Origin: Terriglobus sp. TAA 43
Lineage (GTDB): Bacteria > Acidobacteriota > Terriglobia > Terriglobales > Acidobacteriaceae
NCBI RefSeq assembly: GCF_000800015.1
Contig: NZ_JUGR01000001.1
Location: forward strand, 1,612,001-1,676,000
DNA: 64,000 nt
Reading direction: 5' to 3'
Positions 41,746 to 48,286 of this stretch are shown here, in pieces (the stretch's first letter is position 1; every line of letters begins with the position of its first letter). The notes beneath the pieces are model-generated. The model saw nothing but the letters and a program-made list of their open reading frames with translations, was not told the origin of the DNA and searched no databases. The position numbers and the translations under genes are program-made.

Positions 41746-43038
41746 CTAGTCTTCCGCCCTGTCGTCGTCCACGAGCATCTGCAGGCACAACGGCGCCTCC
41801 AGCATCGTGTTCATTCTGGCAATGGCCTTTACCGCGGCCTCCACCGTGGAGGTCAACGTGGGTTCCGTGGTAACAACGAAGGGTAGCGCATCCTTGGGAT
41901 AGCCGGGCCGCTGCAGGATGCTGTCAATGTTCGCCCCCACCTTGGTCAAAGCACCCGAGATAGCCGACACTATGCCCGGCTTGTCCCGCACGATGAAGCG
42001 GAGATAGTGCGGTGCCAGGAACTCGCCCGTAACGGCCTTTTTCTTGACCGGCAGTGCTACCGAGTTTGAACCATGCACCACGGCCAACAGGTCGCTGACG
42101 ATGGCCACCGCCGTTGGGTTGCCACCAGCGCCGTGTCCACTGAAAACAACATCGCCACCAAATTCACCGGACGTTACGACCATATTTTGCGTACCGTGGG
42201 ACCAGGCAATGGGAGAACTCTTCGGCACCAGCATGGGCGCGACGCGTGCACGCAGCACGCCAGCGCGAAGCTCAGCACGTGCAATCTGTCGAACAGTGCA
42301 GCCAAGTTCCTTTGCATAGGCAAAGTCCACGGCGCTCACGTTGCGGATGGTCTGCGCAGGCACTTCATCGGGGTTGATACCAATCTGCATGGCGGCACGC
42401 ACCAGGATGCAGAGCTTCGCGCGCGCATCGTAACCATCCACGTCCGCCGTGGGGTCAGCTTCGGCGTAGCCCGCCGCCTGCGCCTGCTTCAGCACATCCG
42501 CGTATTCCGCCCCCTGCTCCATGTGCGACAGCATAAAGTTGCAGGTGCCGTTCAGAATGCCGCTTAGACGCGTAATGCGATCGCCCTGCAAGCCATGCAG
42601 CGTAGCCGGAATGACCGGGACACCACCGGCAACTGCGGCGTTGTAAACCAGGACGCGATTGTTCTCACGCGCCAGCTTGGCAAGGCCTGCGCCTTTGTAA
42701 GCGATTAATTGCTTGTTCGCGGTGACGACGTGCTTGCCGCTGCTGAGAGCCTTACGCAGCCAGCCTTCAATGGGATCGATACCACCGATGGTCTCAATGA
42801 CGACATCGACATCCGACTTCAGGATGTCCTGAATGTTTTCCGTCCAGACAATCCCGCTGTTCAGGCCTTTGGCCGTCGCGCCAGAGCGTTTGCGTTCCAC
42901 GCCGCGGTTGTAAATATGCGTAAGTTCGATGCCAGGGAACTTCTGGCCGCGCAATAACTGCGCCACCGACGACCCCACCGTGCCGAAGCCGAGAATTGCA
43001 ACCTTTGTTGCCGCCTTTGCCGCAGTCTGCTTCGCCAT
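41746..43038 (-). CDS. hom: Homoserine dehydrogenase with ACT domain
   Basis: The enzyme reduces aspartate semialdehyde to homoserine, on the way to threonine and methionine. The 430-residue protein has the NAD(P) motif ILGFGTVGSSVAQLL (residues about 14-28), VVIETIGG, HVVTANKQLIAYKG, AAVAGGVPVI, ILNGTCNFMLS and the catalytic ADPTADVDGYDARAK region. A C-terminal ACT domain (about residues 345-425, YLRFIVRDKPGIVSAISGAL) suggests feedback inhibition by threonine. It starts 5 bp after the end of guaD and is probably co-transcribed with it. Confidence 0.95.
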   Translation of the reverse strand: MAKQTAAKAATKVAILGFGTVGSSVAQLLRGQKFPGIELTHIYNRGVERKRSGATAKGLNSGIVWTENIQDILKSDVDVVIETIGGIDPIEGWLRKALSSGKHVVTANKQLIAYKGAGLAKLARENNRVLVYNAAVAGGVPVIPATLHGLQGDRITRLSGILNGTCNFMLSHMEQGAEYADVLKQAQAAGYAEADPTADVDGYDARAKLCILVRAAMQIGINPDEVPAQTIRNVSAVDFAYAKELGCTVRQIARAELRAGVLRARVAPMLVPKSSPIAWSHGTQNMVVTSGEFGGDVVFSGHGAGGNPTAVAIVSDLLAVVHGSNSVALPVKKKAVTGEFLAPHYLRFIVRDKPGIVSAISGALTKVGANIDSILQRPGYPKDALPFVVTTEPTLTSTVEAAVKAIARMNTMLEAPLCLQMLVDDDRAED

Positions 43039-43043
43039 AGTGT

Positions 43044-43529
43044 TTAGTAGTCGATCCTTTCATTGCTGTTCTGCCATGCCTGGAACGAGCGAATGGCTTC
43101 GTCCGGCAACATGCGTTGAAACGGGATGCGTCGCTGTTCGAGCGGCCTGTTGACTTCGTCATACAAAAACTGATCGTCAAACCCTATCGCGGCTGCATCG
43201 GCTTTGGTATTCCCATAAAAAACCGACCGGCATCGCGACCAGTAGAGCGCCGCCATGCACATGGGACAGGGCTCGCATGAGGTGTAGATGTCACAGTCCT
43301 CAAGCTGAAAGGTCTCCAACTTCGCACACGCCGCGCGGATCACATTTACCTCGGCATGTGCCGTGGGATCATTCGTGCTGGTAACAGTATTTGCCCCAGC
43401 AGCGATGACTTCTCCATTGCGCACTACTACCGCCCCGAACGGCCCGCCGTTACCCGAAATGACATTGTCTGTTGCCAGCTCAATTGCCATGCGCATGAAC
43501 TTCGGATCGGGGGAAACGGTATTGCTCAT
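43044..43529 (-). CDS. guaD: Guanine deaminase, CDA-fold (GuaD type)
   Basis: The 161-residue deaminase has the zinc site H58-A-E60 in NDPTAHAEVNVIR and C88/C91 in SCEPCPMCMAALYW. The sequences GGPFGAVVVRNGE, AAAIGFDDQFLYDEV and the C-terminal FQAWQNSNERIDY follow Bacillus GuaD rather than TadA, so guanine to xanthine is the best guess; related enzymes act on isoguanine or creatinine-like substrates. ATG 43529 gives the family length; the frame continues 59 codons upstream without homology. It precedes hom. Confidence 0.85.
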   Translation of the reverse strand: MSNTVSPDPKFMRMAIELATDNVISGNGGPFGAVVVRNGEVIAAGANTVTSTNDPTAHAEVNVIRAACAKLETFQLEDCDIYTSCEPCPMCMAALYWSRCRSVFYGNTKADAAAIGFDDQFLYDEVNRPLEQRRIPFQRMLPDEAIRSFQAWQNSNERIDY

Positions 43530-43763
43530 TCGGTAATGCCTCCCCCTAAGTATCGCAGGGCGCCATGAGAATGGCGAGTTCAGGGCACCGTCATGGTCCG
43601 GCCCGTTACTATAAAACCTTCGCCCGAGTGGTGAAGTGGAAAGCCAACTGCAGACTGGGTTTGCTACCGTAGATGCGATGGAGACCGGAGCCATACGCCG
43701 GTGCAACGGTATGCCGCGCGGTTGTCACGGGTATGCCGTCAGAGTTAGCAGCCGAGGAGTTTG
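43530..43763. promoter_or_regulatory. Divergent spacer with possible long leader and direct repeats
   Basis: The 234-bp spacer separates guaD (-) from the aldehyde-dehydrogenase homologue (+). A TACTAT box (43607-43612) could start a plus-strand leader of about 145 nt. The leader holds a 9-bp direct repeat GGTATGCCG at 43708-43716 and 43730-43738 and GC-rich segments able to pair. I could not match it to a known riboswitch. Confidence 0.3.
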
Positions 43764-45116
43764 ATGCCACTGCAGTCCCTTAATCCGGCAACAGGAGACG
43801 TGCTCCGCACCTTTGAGATGTGGGACGAAGAGGCGTTGCGAACACGCATTGCGCAAGCCCATGAAGCGGCCACCCTCCAACGCATGCTTCCCCTTGAACA
43901 TCGTCTCCTATGCCTACGAAAACTCGCCTCTCTTCTCGAAGAAGAAGGTTCAGAACTAGCGCGCTCCATTACGCAGGAGACGGGGAAAACCATTCTTGCT
44001 TCTGCAGCCGAAGTGGCGCGATGCGCTGACGCATGCCGTTACTATGTCGAACATGCCGTGCGGATGCTGGCTCCTGAACTTCTGCCCGGAGAGGGGGAGC
44101 ATGCCTACGTGCAATGGAGTCCCATTGGCGTGGTGTTGGTCGTCCTGCCGTGGGAGTCTCCGTTTTGGCACGCTTTCCGCTTTTGTGTACCCGCCCTGGT
44201 TGCGGGAAACACCTTGTTGTTAAAGCACGCTGGAAGTGTGCCGCAGTGTTCGCTTCGCATTGAGGCACTGGTGCGACGCGCTGGATTTCCCCGTGGCGCT
44301 GTCACTGCCCTGTTAATCGAAGACAGACTGGTGGAGACGGCGCTGGCGGACGATTACGTTGCCGCAGTATCTGTCTGCGGAACGGAAGCCACCGGGCGCG
44401 CACTGGCGGCAAAAGCCGGATGGCAATTGAAGAAAAGCGCTCTCCAACTGCCGGGCAACGATCCGATGATCATAATGCCTTCTGCCGATCAGGATGCCGC
44501 CATTGCTGCCGTGATTGACGCCATCTGCAGGGGTGACAGCGTTCGACGCGTGATCCTGCACTCTGAGATGTATACAGCGGTCATGGGACGACTCATCGCC
44601 GCTGTGGAATCGCTATCTGTAGGAGACCCGCTGCGAGAAGAGACGCGCATAGGCCCACTGGGAACAGCCGACGCGGTGAAGCTTCTGGAGGAGCAGGTGA
44701 AGGCGGCAGTTACCGCGGGTGGCCGCCTTCTGACCGGTGGAACCCGCATGGTGGGCCGCGGAAATTTCTTCGAGCCGACATTGCTCGCCGACGTCCCGCG
44801 AAACTCTGCGGTGGCACGCGATGCTTTCTCGGGTCCTCTCTGTATGCTGTTCCGAGCCAACGATCTGCAGGATGCCATCGCAATCGCGAATGACACGCCG
44901 ATGGGACGCGCTGCTTCCATATGGACGAAAGAACCAGGGGAACAGCAGCAGCTCATCCACGGTGTGGATGCAGGCTTTGTTGCGTTAAATGCGCTTCCAG
45001 CGGATGACCCACGGCTGCCGGTGGGCGGCGCGAAACGCTCCGGATATGGGCGGGAACTTGGCAGCCAGGGCATGCGCGAGTTTCTGGTTGCCAAGACAGT
45101 CTCGCTCGGCAAATAG
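43764..45116 (+). CDS. Aldehyde dehydrogenase homologue lacking catalytic residues
   Basis: The 450-residue protein follows the Sad/succinate-semialdehyde dehydrogenase plan (SLNPATGDVLRTFEM, WSPIGVVLVVLPW, VPALVAGNTLLLKHA, AVSVCGTEATGRAL, GVDAGFVALNALPADDPRLP, GGAKRSGYGRELG). Its key residues differ: PWES (129-132) replaces PWN-x with Glu for the oxyanion Asn; LQLPGNDP (227-234) replaces ELGGxDP with Gln for the general base; and the loop expected to read NxGQxC is shortened to CRGDSVRRV (255-263), with no cysteine at the nucleophile position. It is therefore likely inactive as a dehydrogenase, though intact as a fold. GAGGAG precedes the ATG at 43764. Confidence 0.85.
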   Translation: MPLQSLNPATGDVLRTFEMWDEEALRTRIAQAHEAATLQRMLPLEHRLLCLRKLASLLEEEGSELARSITQETGKTILASAAEVARCADACRYYVEHAVRMLAPELLPGEGEHAYVQWSPIGVVLVVLPWESPFWHAFRFCVPALVAGNTLLLKHAGSVPQCSLRIEALVRRAGFPRGAVTALLIEDRLVETALADDYVAAVSVCGTEATGRALAAKAGWQLKKSALQLPGNDPMIIMPSADQDAAIAAVIDAICRGDSVRRVILHSEMYTAVMGRLIAAVESLSVGDPLREETRIGPLGTADAVKLLEEQVKAAVTAGGRLLTGGTRMVGRGNFFEPTLLADVPRNSAVARDAFSGPLCMLFRANDLQDAIAIANDTPMGRAASIWTKEPGEQQQLIHGVDAGFVALNALPADDPRLPVGGAKRSGYGRELGSQGMREFLVAKTVSLGK

Positions 45117-45135
45117 TCCGTTTCTACAAAACAAG

Positions 45136-45166
45136 AAAGAGGCGCACCCGCAAGGTGCGCCTCTTT
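45136..45166. terminator. Bidirectional terminator
   Basis: A perfect 13-bp stem (45136-45148 with 45154-45166), beginning AAA and ending TTT, lies between the converging aldehyde-dehydrogenase homologue (+) and the TonB receptor (-). Confidence 0.9.
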
Positions 45167-45184
45167 CATTTGTCTACTTGCCGA

Positions 45185-48100
45185 TTAGAAGTTGAAGCTC
45201 ATCTGCAGCGTGATCGTACGGACTGCGGCGGAGCTGCCGCCCGGTCCCATGCTGGACAACGAGGTGGACTTGCCGAAGAGGTTCTTCGAAGGATCCGCGT
45301 TGTACGAACTCAGCGAGCCGTTGGGAGTGGAGTACGGAACGTAGTTGAACAGGTTCTGAATCTGTGCGCCTACGCTGAGCGTGTACTTGTGTCCTGAGGA
45401 TGCGCCGCCGCCGCCGAAGCCGCCAGGACCGCCAGGTCCACGACCGCCACCACCACCGCCGCGAGGACCGCCACCACCCGGAGGCATTCCACCGCCAGGA
45501 CCATTTTGGCCGTTCTGGCCATTCTGTCCGTTACGGCCACCACGAGCTGCAGCGCCTGTCTTAGCGCCAAAGCCGAAGACCTTCACGACACGCAGGTTAC
45601 CCTGCACATTCGACGGCCCGGTGCAATAGCCCTGGGGAACGCGGTTTCCGGAAGTAACGCCAGTCGCGATGAAGTCCGTAGCCGTTTTGCAGTTTCCGGA
45701 GATGCCGTTCGCAAAACCAGCACGGTCATTGATGATGGTGTCGCCATTCAGGTCCGATCCGGTCGTGATGTTGTACGGGCTACCGGAGTTCACACTGAAG
45801 AACGGGCTCAGGTTGATTCCGTACGGCGCATTCCAGTTGCCGAAGAGGAAGACGCGGTTCGTGGCATTGAACAGTGCACGACCGTAATCTGTCTTCGGAT
45901 TCAGGCTGTCCGTCGGGAAGGAATCCGCGCCATTCGTGTTCGCTTTCGCATTGCTATAGACATAGAAGCCGAAGAGCGAGAAGCGCGGGCTGAGTTGCGT
46001 ACGTACATTCACGATGAGCTGGTTCTGGCGATACACACCGCCAGACTGGTACTGGTACACGTAGTTTCCAGCTGCTGTCGGAATCGAACGCGACATATAC
46101 ATGTGATCGCCGATCGTGTTCAGGTAGTTGAACGAGACCGTAGACCGCTTGCCCACCTGCTGATCGGCTCCCAGGGCCAGCTGCATGTTGTAAGAAGAAC
46201 GCAGATCCGGACCAAGCTGATAGATCGTCTTCGAACCGGCTGTTCCCGTGCCGCAATTTCCGGGATTGGAAGGGCCGCAATTTGTCGTGATTGCACCAAC
46301 GCTGCCATCCGCGTTGCGAGGGCCGCTATAGATGTTCGTGATCTGGTTGATGCCGTTCTGACGTTGCGTCTGGATAACATCGCTCAGATTGAAGCGGTCA
46401 TAAAAGATGCCCCACCCGGCGCGAATCACAGTACCAGGATTCCCCTTTTTCGAAGGAACACCGTAGGAAAGAGCGACACGCGGAGCGATATCGGCCTTGC
46501 TATTAATCGCACCCTGAGATTCCAGTCGTGCGCCATAGCTCAGCGTCATGTTCGGCTTGATCTTCCAATCATCTTCACCATAGAAACCAACATCTGTCAG
46601 CGACTGTTCCGCGCGTGGATTATTAATCGTGGTGACGCGGTACTGGAACGGCTGACCATGGACGTAGTTGTAATCCGATGTTGTAGGAGTGCAGGTCGTC
46701 ACCGTAGTCGTGGTCGTGCAGTTGGTGGTGGGACCATAGGTGAACGCACCGTTTGAACCTGCATTGGAATACAAGGCTTCGCGGTTGACACGCAACCGCA
46801 CGCCCGCGCGGATGAAGTTCTTTTGCAGAGCGATCGAAGTGTAGTTCTGCAGTTCCAGATGATCGTTCGTGCTGTTCTGGGTTCCTGCACTGGAACCACC
46901 ACCCGTAAAGTAGCCAGTCAGTGTCAATGTAGGCGTTGTAGTCTGGGGCGCCTGTGAAGTGATCTCACGAACCAGTTGCAGACGCGTTTCGTTGATCAGC
47001 TTGCTGCTGATGATCTGCGTGTCACTGATGGTGAGCTGGTGCTCGTGGCTTCCGGTGTTGTAGGCCGTGGTGTTCAGCGACGTGGAACCAAGACCAGCGT
47101 TGTTGGCGGTGTTGTGCTCAAACTGATAGCGGATCGTCAGCGTATTCTTCTCGCCCAGGGCCACGTCATAACGCGGGGTCAGATCCCAGCGCTTCTGTGG
47201 ATGGAACGTTGCGCGCGACGCATCCGGAAACGTGTTCAGAGCGCAGGTGAGATCGCCGGGCTGGCAAAGCACATTGGAAGCCGGGCCTGTGCTGATAATT
47301 TGTCCAGCGAAGATGCTGTTGTCTTCAATGTCACGGTAGCTACCGGCAATGGAGTACGAGCTGGTCTTGGTCGCGGGACCAGTCAGCGATCCGATGAAGA
47401 AGATGCGGTGATAATCCGGCTGCTGGTTTGCGGCACCGAGGAATGGGCTGGACGTATTGAACGACTTGTCGTTGCCCTGCAGGCTGAAGTTACCGTGGTA
47501 TTTGTCCGTACCCGGCTTCGTGAAGACTTCCACACGACCAAAGCCCTGCTTGTCGAACTGAGCCGAAAACGGATTCTGGTTCACGCGGATTTCGCGGATC
47601 GAAGACTTCGGCGGAAGCGTACCGCCCGTGAAACCGTCCACGTAAATCTGTCCGCCGTTCGGACCCGCCGAAGGACCGGCCAGTGCCGACAGCTCGCTGG
47701 AAAGCTCATCCGGGTCATCAGAGAGTGCTTCCAGGTCCTTGTCCTTGATGACGACAGAGCTGCCGTTGGAATCCGGATCGGTGGAAACCTGCGTGTTCTG
47801 CGTGGTCACGTTGATTTCCGTAGACTCTGCCTGAACCGTCATGGCCGTATTGAGGTTCACGGTTGCCGTGCCCACTCGCACACCCTGGCGCACGAACGAA
47901 GCAAAACCCTGCATCGTAACCGTCACAGAGTAGGTGCCGGACGGAACATTGCGGAACGTGTACGCTCCATCCGCACCGGAGGTGGTCACCAGCGCTTGGC
48001 CCTTAGCGGGCGTCAGTGTCACTGTGGCGCCGGGGATCGCAGCCTGATCCGGATCCAGCACAAATCCTGTAACAGTGGCCGCGGATGCCGTCTGGGCATA

Positions 48101-48196
48101 CGCCATCGGCGCGCAAAGGGTTGCGCTACCGGCCAAGCTTACCGAAAGAATTGCAATCGACAGTCGTCGAGAGCTTGTAAGGCAAAAGTTCATCAT
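45185..48196 (-). CDS. Oar-like TonB-dependent receptor with carboxypeptidase-regulatory domain
   Basis: The 1003-residue outer-membrane protein has a signal peptide (ending MAYAQ, about residue 35), a carboxypeptidase-regulatory-like domain (about 40-120, VTGFVLDPDQAAIPGATVTL, VPSGTYSVTVTMQGFASF), a plug (DELSSELSALAGPSAGPNGGQIYVDGF split motifs, SSIREIRVNQNPFSAQFDKQ) and a 22-strand-type barrel ending in a C-terminal Phe. This is the Oar/SusC-like design common in Acidobacteria, for large or complex ligands. A run of NGQNGQNGQNGPGGG and Gly/Pro/Arg repeats, about 50 residues, interrupts the last part of the barrel near residue 930. It lies 90 bp downstream of the DUF5666 gene and is closed by a terminator. 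Confidence 0.9.
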   Translation of the reverse strand: MMNFCLTSSRRLSIAILSVSLAGSATLCAPMAYAQTASAATVTGFVLDPDQAAIPGATVTLTPAKGQALVTTSGADGAYTFRNVPSGTYSVTVTMQGFASFVRQGVRVGTATVNLNTAMTVQAESTEINVTTQNTQVSTDPDSNGSSVVIKDKDLEALSDDPDELSSELSALAGPSAGPNGGQIYVDGFTGGTLPPKSSIREIRVNQNPFSAQFDKQGFGRVEVFTKPGTDKYHGNFSLQGNDKSFNTSSPFLGAANQQPDYHRIFFIGSLTGPATKTSSYSIAGSYRDIEDNSIFAGQIISTGPASNVLCQPGDLTCALNTFPDASRATFHPQKRWDLTPRYDVALGEKNTLTIRYQFEHNTANNAGLGSTSLNTTAYNTGSHEHQLTISDTQIISSKLINETRLQLVREITSQAPQTTTPTLTLTGYFTGGGSSAGTQNSTNDHLELQNYTSIALQKNFIRAGVRLRVNREALYSNAGSNGAFTYGPTTNCTTTTTVTTCTPTTSDYNYVHGQPFQYRVTTINNPRAEQSLTDVGFYGEDDWKIKPNMTLSYGARLESQGAINSKADIAPRVALSYGVPSKKGNPGTVIRAGWGIFYDRFNLSDVIQTQRQNGINQITNIYSGPRNADGSVGAITTNCGPSNPGNCGTGTAGSKTIYQLGPDLRSSYNMQLALGADQQVGKRSTVSFNYLNTIGDHMYMSRSIPTAAGNYVYQYQSGGVYRQNQLIVNVRTQLSPRFSLFGFYVYSNAKANTNGADSFPTDSLNPKTDYGRALFNATNRVFLFGNWNAPYGINLSPFFSVNSGSPYNITTGSDLNGDTIINDRAGFANGISGNCKTATDFIATGVTSGNRVPQGYCTGPSNVQGNLRVVKVFGFGAKTGAAARGGRNGQNGQNGQNGPGGGMPPGGGGPRGGGGGGRGPGGPGGFGGGGASSGHKYTLSVGAQIQNLFNYVPYSTPNGSLSSYNADPSKNLFGKSTSLSSMGPGGSSAAVRTITLQMSFNF

Positions 48197-48286
48197 GACC
48201 CTCAAAGAAGGTGAAGTGTGTATGCTTCGGTGTTACCGCCGCAGCACAGGAGTTGTTGGTCTATCTCGCGGTTGAGAGGCGAAACG

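Follow-up and report, generated by a model that had tools for sequence, protein, structure and literature searches.

Analysis of the gene located at 43764-45116 of the window (the whole stretch of 64 000 nucleotides of DNA that was analysed) revealed an aldehyde dehydrogenase (ALDH) of the Sad/SSADH type in which the three catalytic residues are missing, and the same form of the protein, hereafter called the dead form, is found in four other genomes of the genus. Our preferred explanation, which we consider probably correct, is that an inherited Sad-type ALDH lost its triad once, beside a urate/allantoin gene cluster, and has since been kept for a function that does not use ALDH chemistry. The features of the window that bear on this explanation are the following:

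41746..43038, minus strand: homoserine dehydrogenase, used as a species marker, and a conserved flank
43044..43529, minus strand: deaminase-like gene flanking the ALDH site (TadA model at 76.5 bits, below the cut-off of 150)
43530..43763, no strand: intergenic region with putative short remnants of the missing urate/allantoin cluster (alignment to G201 and G202)
43764..45116, plus strand: Sad-type ALDH gene, 450 amino acids, predicted to be catalytically dead (ORF, Pfam profile, alignment and AlphaFold2 model)
44154..44156, plus strand: codon 131, GAG (Glu), replacing the oxyanion Asn (DNA and alignment)
44445..44447, plus strand: codon 228, CAA (Gln), replacing the general base Glu (DNA and alignment)
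44514..44552, plus strand: shortened nucleophile loop, residues 251-263, without Cys at the catalytic place (alignment)
45135..45167, no strand: terminator-like inverted repeat separating the ALDH gene from the TonB-receptor-like gene that converges on it
45185..48205, minus strand: presumably a TonB-dependent-receptor-like protein, a name that we take from sequence features; conserved flank on the other side

The open reading frame runs from an ATG at 43764 to a stop codon ending at 45116, with no internal stop and a GAGGAG immediately 5′ of the start, and the inverted repeat beyond it has a stem of 14 to 15 pairs. Its designation as terminator-like rests on that stem and not on the count of such sites, 2 observed against 1.8 in shuffled sequences. 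The intact frame and the ribosome site of the original prediction were recovered, its terminator as a terminator-like site, and so was the assignment to a full-length Sad/SSADH-type enzyme: the protein matches Aldedh PF00171 over its full length at 355 bits (cut-off 23), and its best NCBIfam model is the NADP-dependent succinic semialdehyde dehydrogenase NF006915, at 438 bits, a score below the curated cut-off of 730. The closest solved structures are those of SSADH, 3vz3 and 4it9, the former being the Synechococcus sp. PCC 7002 enzyme according to PMC7510979. From an input of seven rows, AlphaFold2 gave five models with pLDDT of 66.9 to 85.6. The best one (pLDDT 85.6, pTM 0.85) is weak at about 411-440, a stretch that includes Asp414, and it aligns to 3vz3 with a TM-score of 0.96 at 40% identity; on this model, the ALDH fold is predicted to be retained. 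Rows for the structure alignment were also sought through scans of viral contigs, two of which brought three loci each and two none.

The active site was compared with 51 canonical rows, i.e. the same-family loci among the matches listed (162 genomes matched a profile made from the five dead proteins). Distant paralogues, namely L001-L005 and L007 from the window's own genome and L046-L051, are excluded from these rows, and L045 is a partial gene. All 51 rows have Asn at position 131, Glu at position 228 and Cys in the Cys262 column (SySSADH-like numbering). In the five dead proteins, position 131 is E, E, Q, E and E, position 228 is Q, H, H, H and H, and the Cys262 column is a gap in all of them, which bears out what had been read from the window alone, i.e. 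that Asn131 has become Glu, that Glu228 has become Gln and that there is no nucleophile Cys. The loss is wider than first stated, for Glu359, Phe361 and Ser419 are replaced as well. The first two, which belong to the EExFGP motif and are kept in 51/51 canonical rows, are A and S in the window protein, the motif reading DAFSGP or DALAGP in the five dead proteins. Of the residues that contact the substrate carboxylate, Ser419 is Asp in 5/5, with Trp135 and Arg139 retained in 5/5. Further changes common to the five, in the same numbering, are Gly230 to Pro, Leu387 to Arg (residue 382 of the window protein), Gln136 to His and a replacement of Phe425; Trp130, Lys154 and Gly259 are also retained in all, the Pro preceding Trp130 being Ser in G202.

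What these changes should mean for activity can be judged from cce4228, an enzyme of the same branch from Cyanothece: in PMC7510979, the single mutants C262A, E228A and N131A are each inactive. Since all three residues are lost here, the window protein should, by analogy, be devoid of ALDH chemistry. Loss of the EExFGP motif alone need not kill activity, because the Glu360Ala mutant of cce4228 is given there with 65% of its catalytic efficiency left. Cys255, which had been named as a possible nucleophile able to rescue the enzyme, is not a conserved nucleophile, as two of the five proteins have C at this position, two have A and the remaining one has G. Rescue by another Cys was also rejected: the five proteins have no invariant Cys besides Cys87 and Cys162, neither of which lies at the nucleophile place, and both are ordinary family residues, present respectively in 98% and 94% of the canonical rows. 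Ser157 (NADP 2′-phosphate) was discarded as a candidate lost residue, because no more than 31 of the 51 canonical rows have Ser there. The base Glu by itself is not universal, for it is missing in own4, one of the excluded paralogues of the window genome, in which the Asn and the Cys are present. Another Aldedh gene, G095:C1:3734560-3735861, contains one in-frame TGA.

At 1e-70, matches were obtained in 16 of the 19 genomes of the genus, and the dead form is present in five of them: the window genome (G000) and G095, G031, G201 and G202, whose proteins are respectively 91%, 89%, 66% and 63% identical to that of the window. One of them, G201, is the complete sequence of Terriglobus roseus DSM 18391 (NC_018014.1). 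When the profile of the five was run against 398 family genomes, the five scored 888-952 bits and the next match, a canonical enzyme, 670. Contigs of named genomes, with near genomes left out, were also scanned with two short peptide patterns; T. roseus alone was found, which is weak evidence of absence from the others. Sequencing error, or decay of one copy, was rejected as a cause of the dead form, which is common to five assemblies.

In the ALDH gene tree (midpoint-rooted, built from 27 of 56 rows trimmed to the C-terminal 470 residues), the five dead copies form one clade (100/100) beside the canonical G207, G208 and G200, so that the triad would have been lost once, in their common ancestor. 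A tree of the neighbouring homoserine dehydrogenase, also midpoint-rooted, recovers the same grouping of species and puts G206, G209 and G210 among or beside the five; it covers 17 of the 19 genomes (G204 and G205, which are partial, were left out), and for G206, whose match has one internal stop, the longest-matching open stretch was used. Because the two trees agree on placement, a paralogous or horizontal origin is not favoured. The genus search found no close ALDH relative in G206, G209 and G210, the contig of G206 ending just before the ALDH place. Canonical ALDHs at the same locus (G207, G208, G194, G150 and others) have the same neighbours as the window gene, with 49-57% identity within the genus and in G150; those of the sister species keep Asn131, Glu228, Cys262, Glu359 and Phe361, whereas the window protein does not. 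Orthologues keeping the canonical residues had been proposed as a sign that the window copy is simply degenerating. On this point the outcome is split: the four nearest orthologues are without the residues, and it is the next sister group that keeps them. Such a split dates the loss, rather than indicating decay of the window copy.

The genomic context points to where the loss took place. In T. roseus, the ALDH gene follows seven colinear genes, six of which are identified above NCBIfam cut-offs: allantoinase, OHCU decarboxylase, hydroxyisourate hydrolase, urate oxidase, allantoate amidohydrolase and ureidoglycine aminohydrolase. For the seventh, the one model whose cut-off is exceeded is a broad hydantoinase/carbamoylase model. 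From their order, we infer that the seven form one operon. A survey of neighbourhoods by tblastn with named proteins covered 30 genomes, the window genome, L098 and L100 not being among them, and some neighbourhood edges are cut by the stretch examined. The ALDH gene ends the urate/allantoin cluster in 15 of the 30, mostly between the deaminase-like and the TonB-receptor-like genes. At least one flank is shared, with no cluster at the site, in nine others, two with the dead form (G095, G031) and seven with a canonical copy (G200, G166, G034, G098, G130, G067, G116). None of the usual neighbours was seen in G032, G011 and G096, and no ALDH was seen in the remaining three, G209, G210 and G206 (contig end). 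The seven canonical genes standing beside a usual flank without the cluster are L125, L060, L084, L085, L088, L091 and L092; the cluster has apparently been lost repeatedly in these genomes, with the ALDH retained. For G034, G098, G130, G067 and G116, its absence is established at the ALDH site only. Whole-genome searches for uricase, which is present in 12 of the 19 genus genomes, found none in G000, G095, G031, G200, G166, G209 and G210. At L120 and L121, in G209 and G210, both the cluster and the ALDH are missing, and the deaminase-like gene adjoins the TonB-receptor-like gene. The latter gene, at 45185-48205 in the window, has a glycine-rich stretch and often lies next to the cluster across several genera; its product is a candidate uptake system for the cluster substrate. 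In at least seven genomes, a canonical copy is present with no cluster at its site, and the role of the dead ALDH therefore looks separable from urate degradation.

Among the species with the dead form, the cluster is intact in two (G201, G202) and gone in three (G000, G095, G031). In the window, 234 bases separate the deaminase-like gene from the ALDH gene, and this intergenic region aligns in G095 (84%) and G031 (72%). It contains two short matches to the cluster, in the expected order. One, at bases 19-49 (43548-43578), matches the deaminase/allantoinase junction of G201 and of G202 over 31 bases at 84% (E 2.6e-4 each). The other corresponds to a place close to the 3′ terminus of the final amidohydrolase gene and is matched by G202 at bases 122-151 (43651-43680; 30 bases, 87%, E 2.6e-4), by G201 at bases 130-151 within it (22 bases, 91%, E 9e-4) and also by G206 (E 0.009). 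G200 gave only chance-level matches to the window intergenic region (E 0.38). From these sequences, it is most likely that the cluster was present in the ancestor of the three cluster-less species and was deleted once the triad had been lost; that the triad went before the deletion follows from G201 and G202, which share the dead triad and have the cluster intact. G000, G095 and G031 have the 22-base piece of the amidohydrolase gene in identical form, and this remnant may now serve as a regulatory sequence.

The dead ALDH is under strong purifying selection among the three closest species. The dN/dS ratio (NG86) is 0.055 for G000/G095 (dN 0.048, dS 0.873), 0.065 for G000/G031 (dN 0.061, dS 0.944) and 0.067 for G095/G031 (dN 0.058, dS 0.866); for the G201/G202 pair it is 0.096 (dN 0.110, dS 1.149). 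We relied on NG86 and on close pairs only, several ML and YN00 estimates being saturated. For eight other genes, the ratio goes from 0.012 to 0.169 between G000 and G095, a range that includes the dead ALDH, and from 0.043 to 0.096 between G201 and G202, where the dead ALDH is joint highest of the nine. These values bear directly on the possibility that the gene is a degenerating relic, i.e. that its use was lost when the cluster was deleted and that it is now disappearing, although stops have not yet interrupted it. Such a relic would fit with the ALDH gene being the only full gene of the cluster site remaining in three species, with the length of the branch leading to them (0.40 changes per column, versus 0.057 in homoserine dehydrogenase) and with the near sister lineage, G209 and G210, in which the gene must be dispensable since the searches revealed no close ALDH relative there, and no uricase either. 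However, ratios so far below 1, and within the range of the other genes, largely exclude decay; moreover, the dead triad is older than the deletion, being shared by two species with an intact cluster, and the ALDH fold is predicted to persist. We therefore regard a relic as very improbable; the long branch, which does tell against a simple account, indicates that a phase of relaxed or changed selection preceded the present constraint.

Comparison of the six dead-clade pairs that link the two subgroups (mean identity 0.65) with 67 canonical pairs of like identity indicates where constraint has shifted. Identity is lower in the dead clade at residues 126-150 (0.65 versus 0.89), 251-275 (0.21 versus 0.65) and 401-425 (0.60 versus 0.74), segments that contain triad or substrate residues, as well as at 176-200 (0.45 versus 0.59), for which we know of no active-site role. 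It is higher at 26-50 (0.69 versus 0.46) and 376-400 (0.83 versus 0.67), and also at 51-75 and 301-350. At 131 columns, 97% or more of the canonical rows agree; the dead proteins all retain the canonical residue at 84 of these, all five have changed it at 25, and they are mixed at 22. With the dead clade defined by only five sequences, 26 positions are invariant in the five and occur in less than 5% of the 51 canonical rows, e.g. S132, H136, P230, A354, R382, A407 and D414; L070 (a second copy of the G207 gene) and L008 (the query itself) were dropped from this column analysis. I.e., as we read the alignment, the body would be kept for binding, and the pocket would no longer perform the old chemistry. 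The positions invariant in the five and rare elsewhere might also be taken as traces of a newly acquired activity of non-redox type, as a hydrolase, a lyase or an isomerase, operating via His136, His/Gln228, Arg382 and Asp414. But position 228 holds Q in one protein and H in the others, position 131 holds E in all except one, which has Q, and the three segments around the old active site are less conserved than in canonical pairs, when the reverse is expected of a new active site, so that we consider such an activity quite improbable.

By sequence, the window protein corresponds to what is called a pseudoenzyme, defined in PMC10211241 by the lack of conserved catalytic motifs, and the original prediction of a pseudoenzyme kept for another role is strengthened by the changes common to five species, by purifying selection and by the inactivity of the cce4228 mutants. 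The course of events that we propose is as follows. A vertically inherited Sad/SSADH-type ALDH would have lost its whole triad once, in the ancestor of the five species, at a time when its gene ended the urate/allantoin cluster, and the dead gene would have been retained afterwards for a function not using ALDH chemistry. The protein would keep the ALDH body and the adenine-side Lys154, and its nicotinamide/nucleophile side would have been rebuilt with Ser132, His136, Pro230, Ala354, Arg382 and Asp414 (window numbering), invariant in the five. Such a combination of rebuilt pocket and kept body would most likely serve for binding without turnover, either of a ligand or of a partner ALDH subunit, the dead ALDH then working as an oligomeric binding or regulatory protein. 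On the evidence from sequence, we lean slightly towards a stand-alone binding or regulatory protein. A sensor of NAD(P), one of the roles suggested at the outset, is weakened as a possibility by the changed residues on the nicotinamide side, though Lys154 is kept. More tentatively, and with the odds rather against it, the pseudoenzyme that arose beside the cluster, rebuilt its ligand pocket and outlived the cluster may be a metabolite sensor or regulator caught in mid-change from a pathway enzyme.

The dead ALDH could instead be a regulatory subunit, forming mixed oligomers with an active ALDH and altering the activity of the latter. The C-terminal stretch is well conserved among the dead proteins, all five genomes encode further Aldedh proteins, and PMC10211241 describes a variant of ALDH2 that is itself inactive but has an effect within mixed tetramers. 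However, a search at 1e-70 found in G031 and G201 no counterpart of G000:C1:1242401, the active Sad-type paralogue nearest to the dead protein, and this paralogue was rejected as a partner common to the five; we find a regulatory subunit unlikely, if less so than a new activity.

In the open-licence literature, we found no bacterial ALDH pseudoenzyme and no paper on the T. roseus gene. The Synechococcus SSADH (3vz3, 4it9) and the Cyanothece cce4228 resemble the dead proteins in fold and in Lys154, Trp135 and Arg139, but differ from all five in Asn131, Glu228, Cys262 and Ser419, which are replaced or missing in the latter. The closest known case is animal ALDH16A1, ALDH16 having a double-domain build: both are ALDHs that are without the triad and yet kept, but the window protein is single-domain, 450 amino acids long, bacterial, of Sad type and associated with a urate cluster site. 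Judging from the ALDH tree, which holds no ALDH16, we infer that the loss in the dead clade was independent of that in ALDH16. In PMC10650815 and PMC8160307, human ALDH16A1 is without the whole triad, is called a pseudoenzyme and has a proposed binding role, its actual role being unsettled. An association of ALDH16A1 with gout and uric acid also appears in PMC10650815; on present evidence, its likeness to the urate cluster found here is a coincidence. Beside ALDH16A1, the protein described here offers a small single-domain bacterial case, in which the loss can be placed on a tree and canonical orthologues, predicted to be active, occupy the same locus in sister species, and through T. roseus DSM 18391, a named and completely sequenced organism, it opens the question of why a dead metabolic enzyme is kept.
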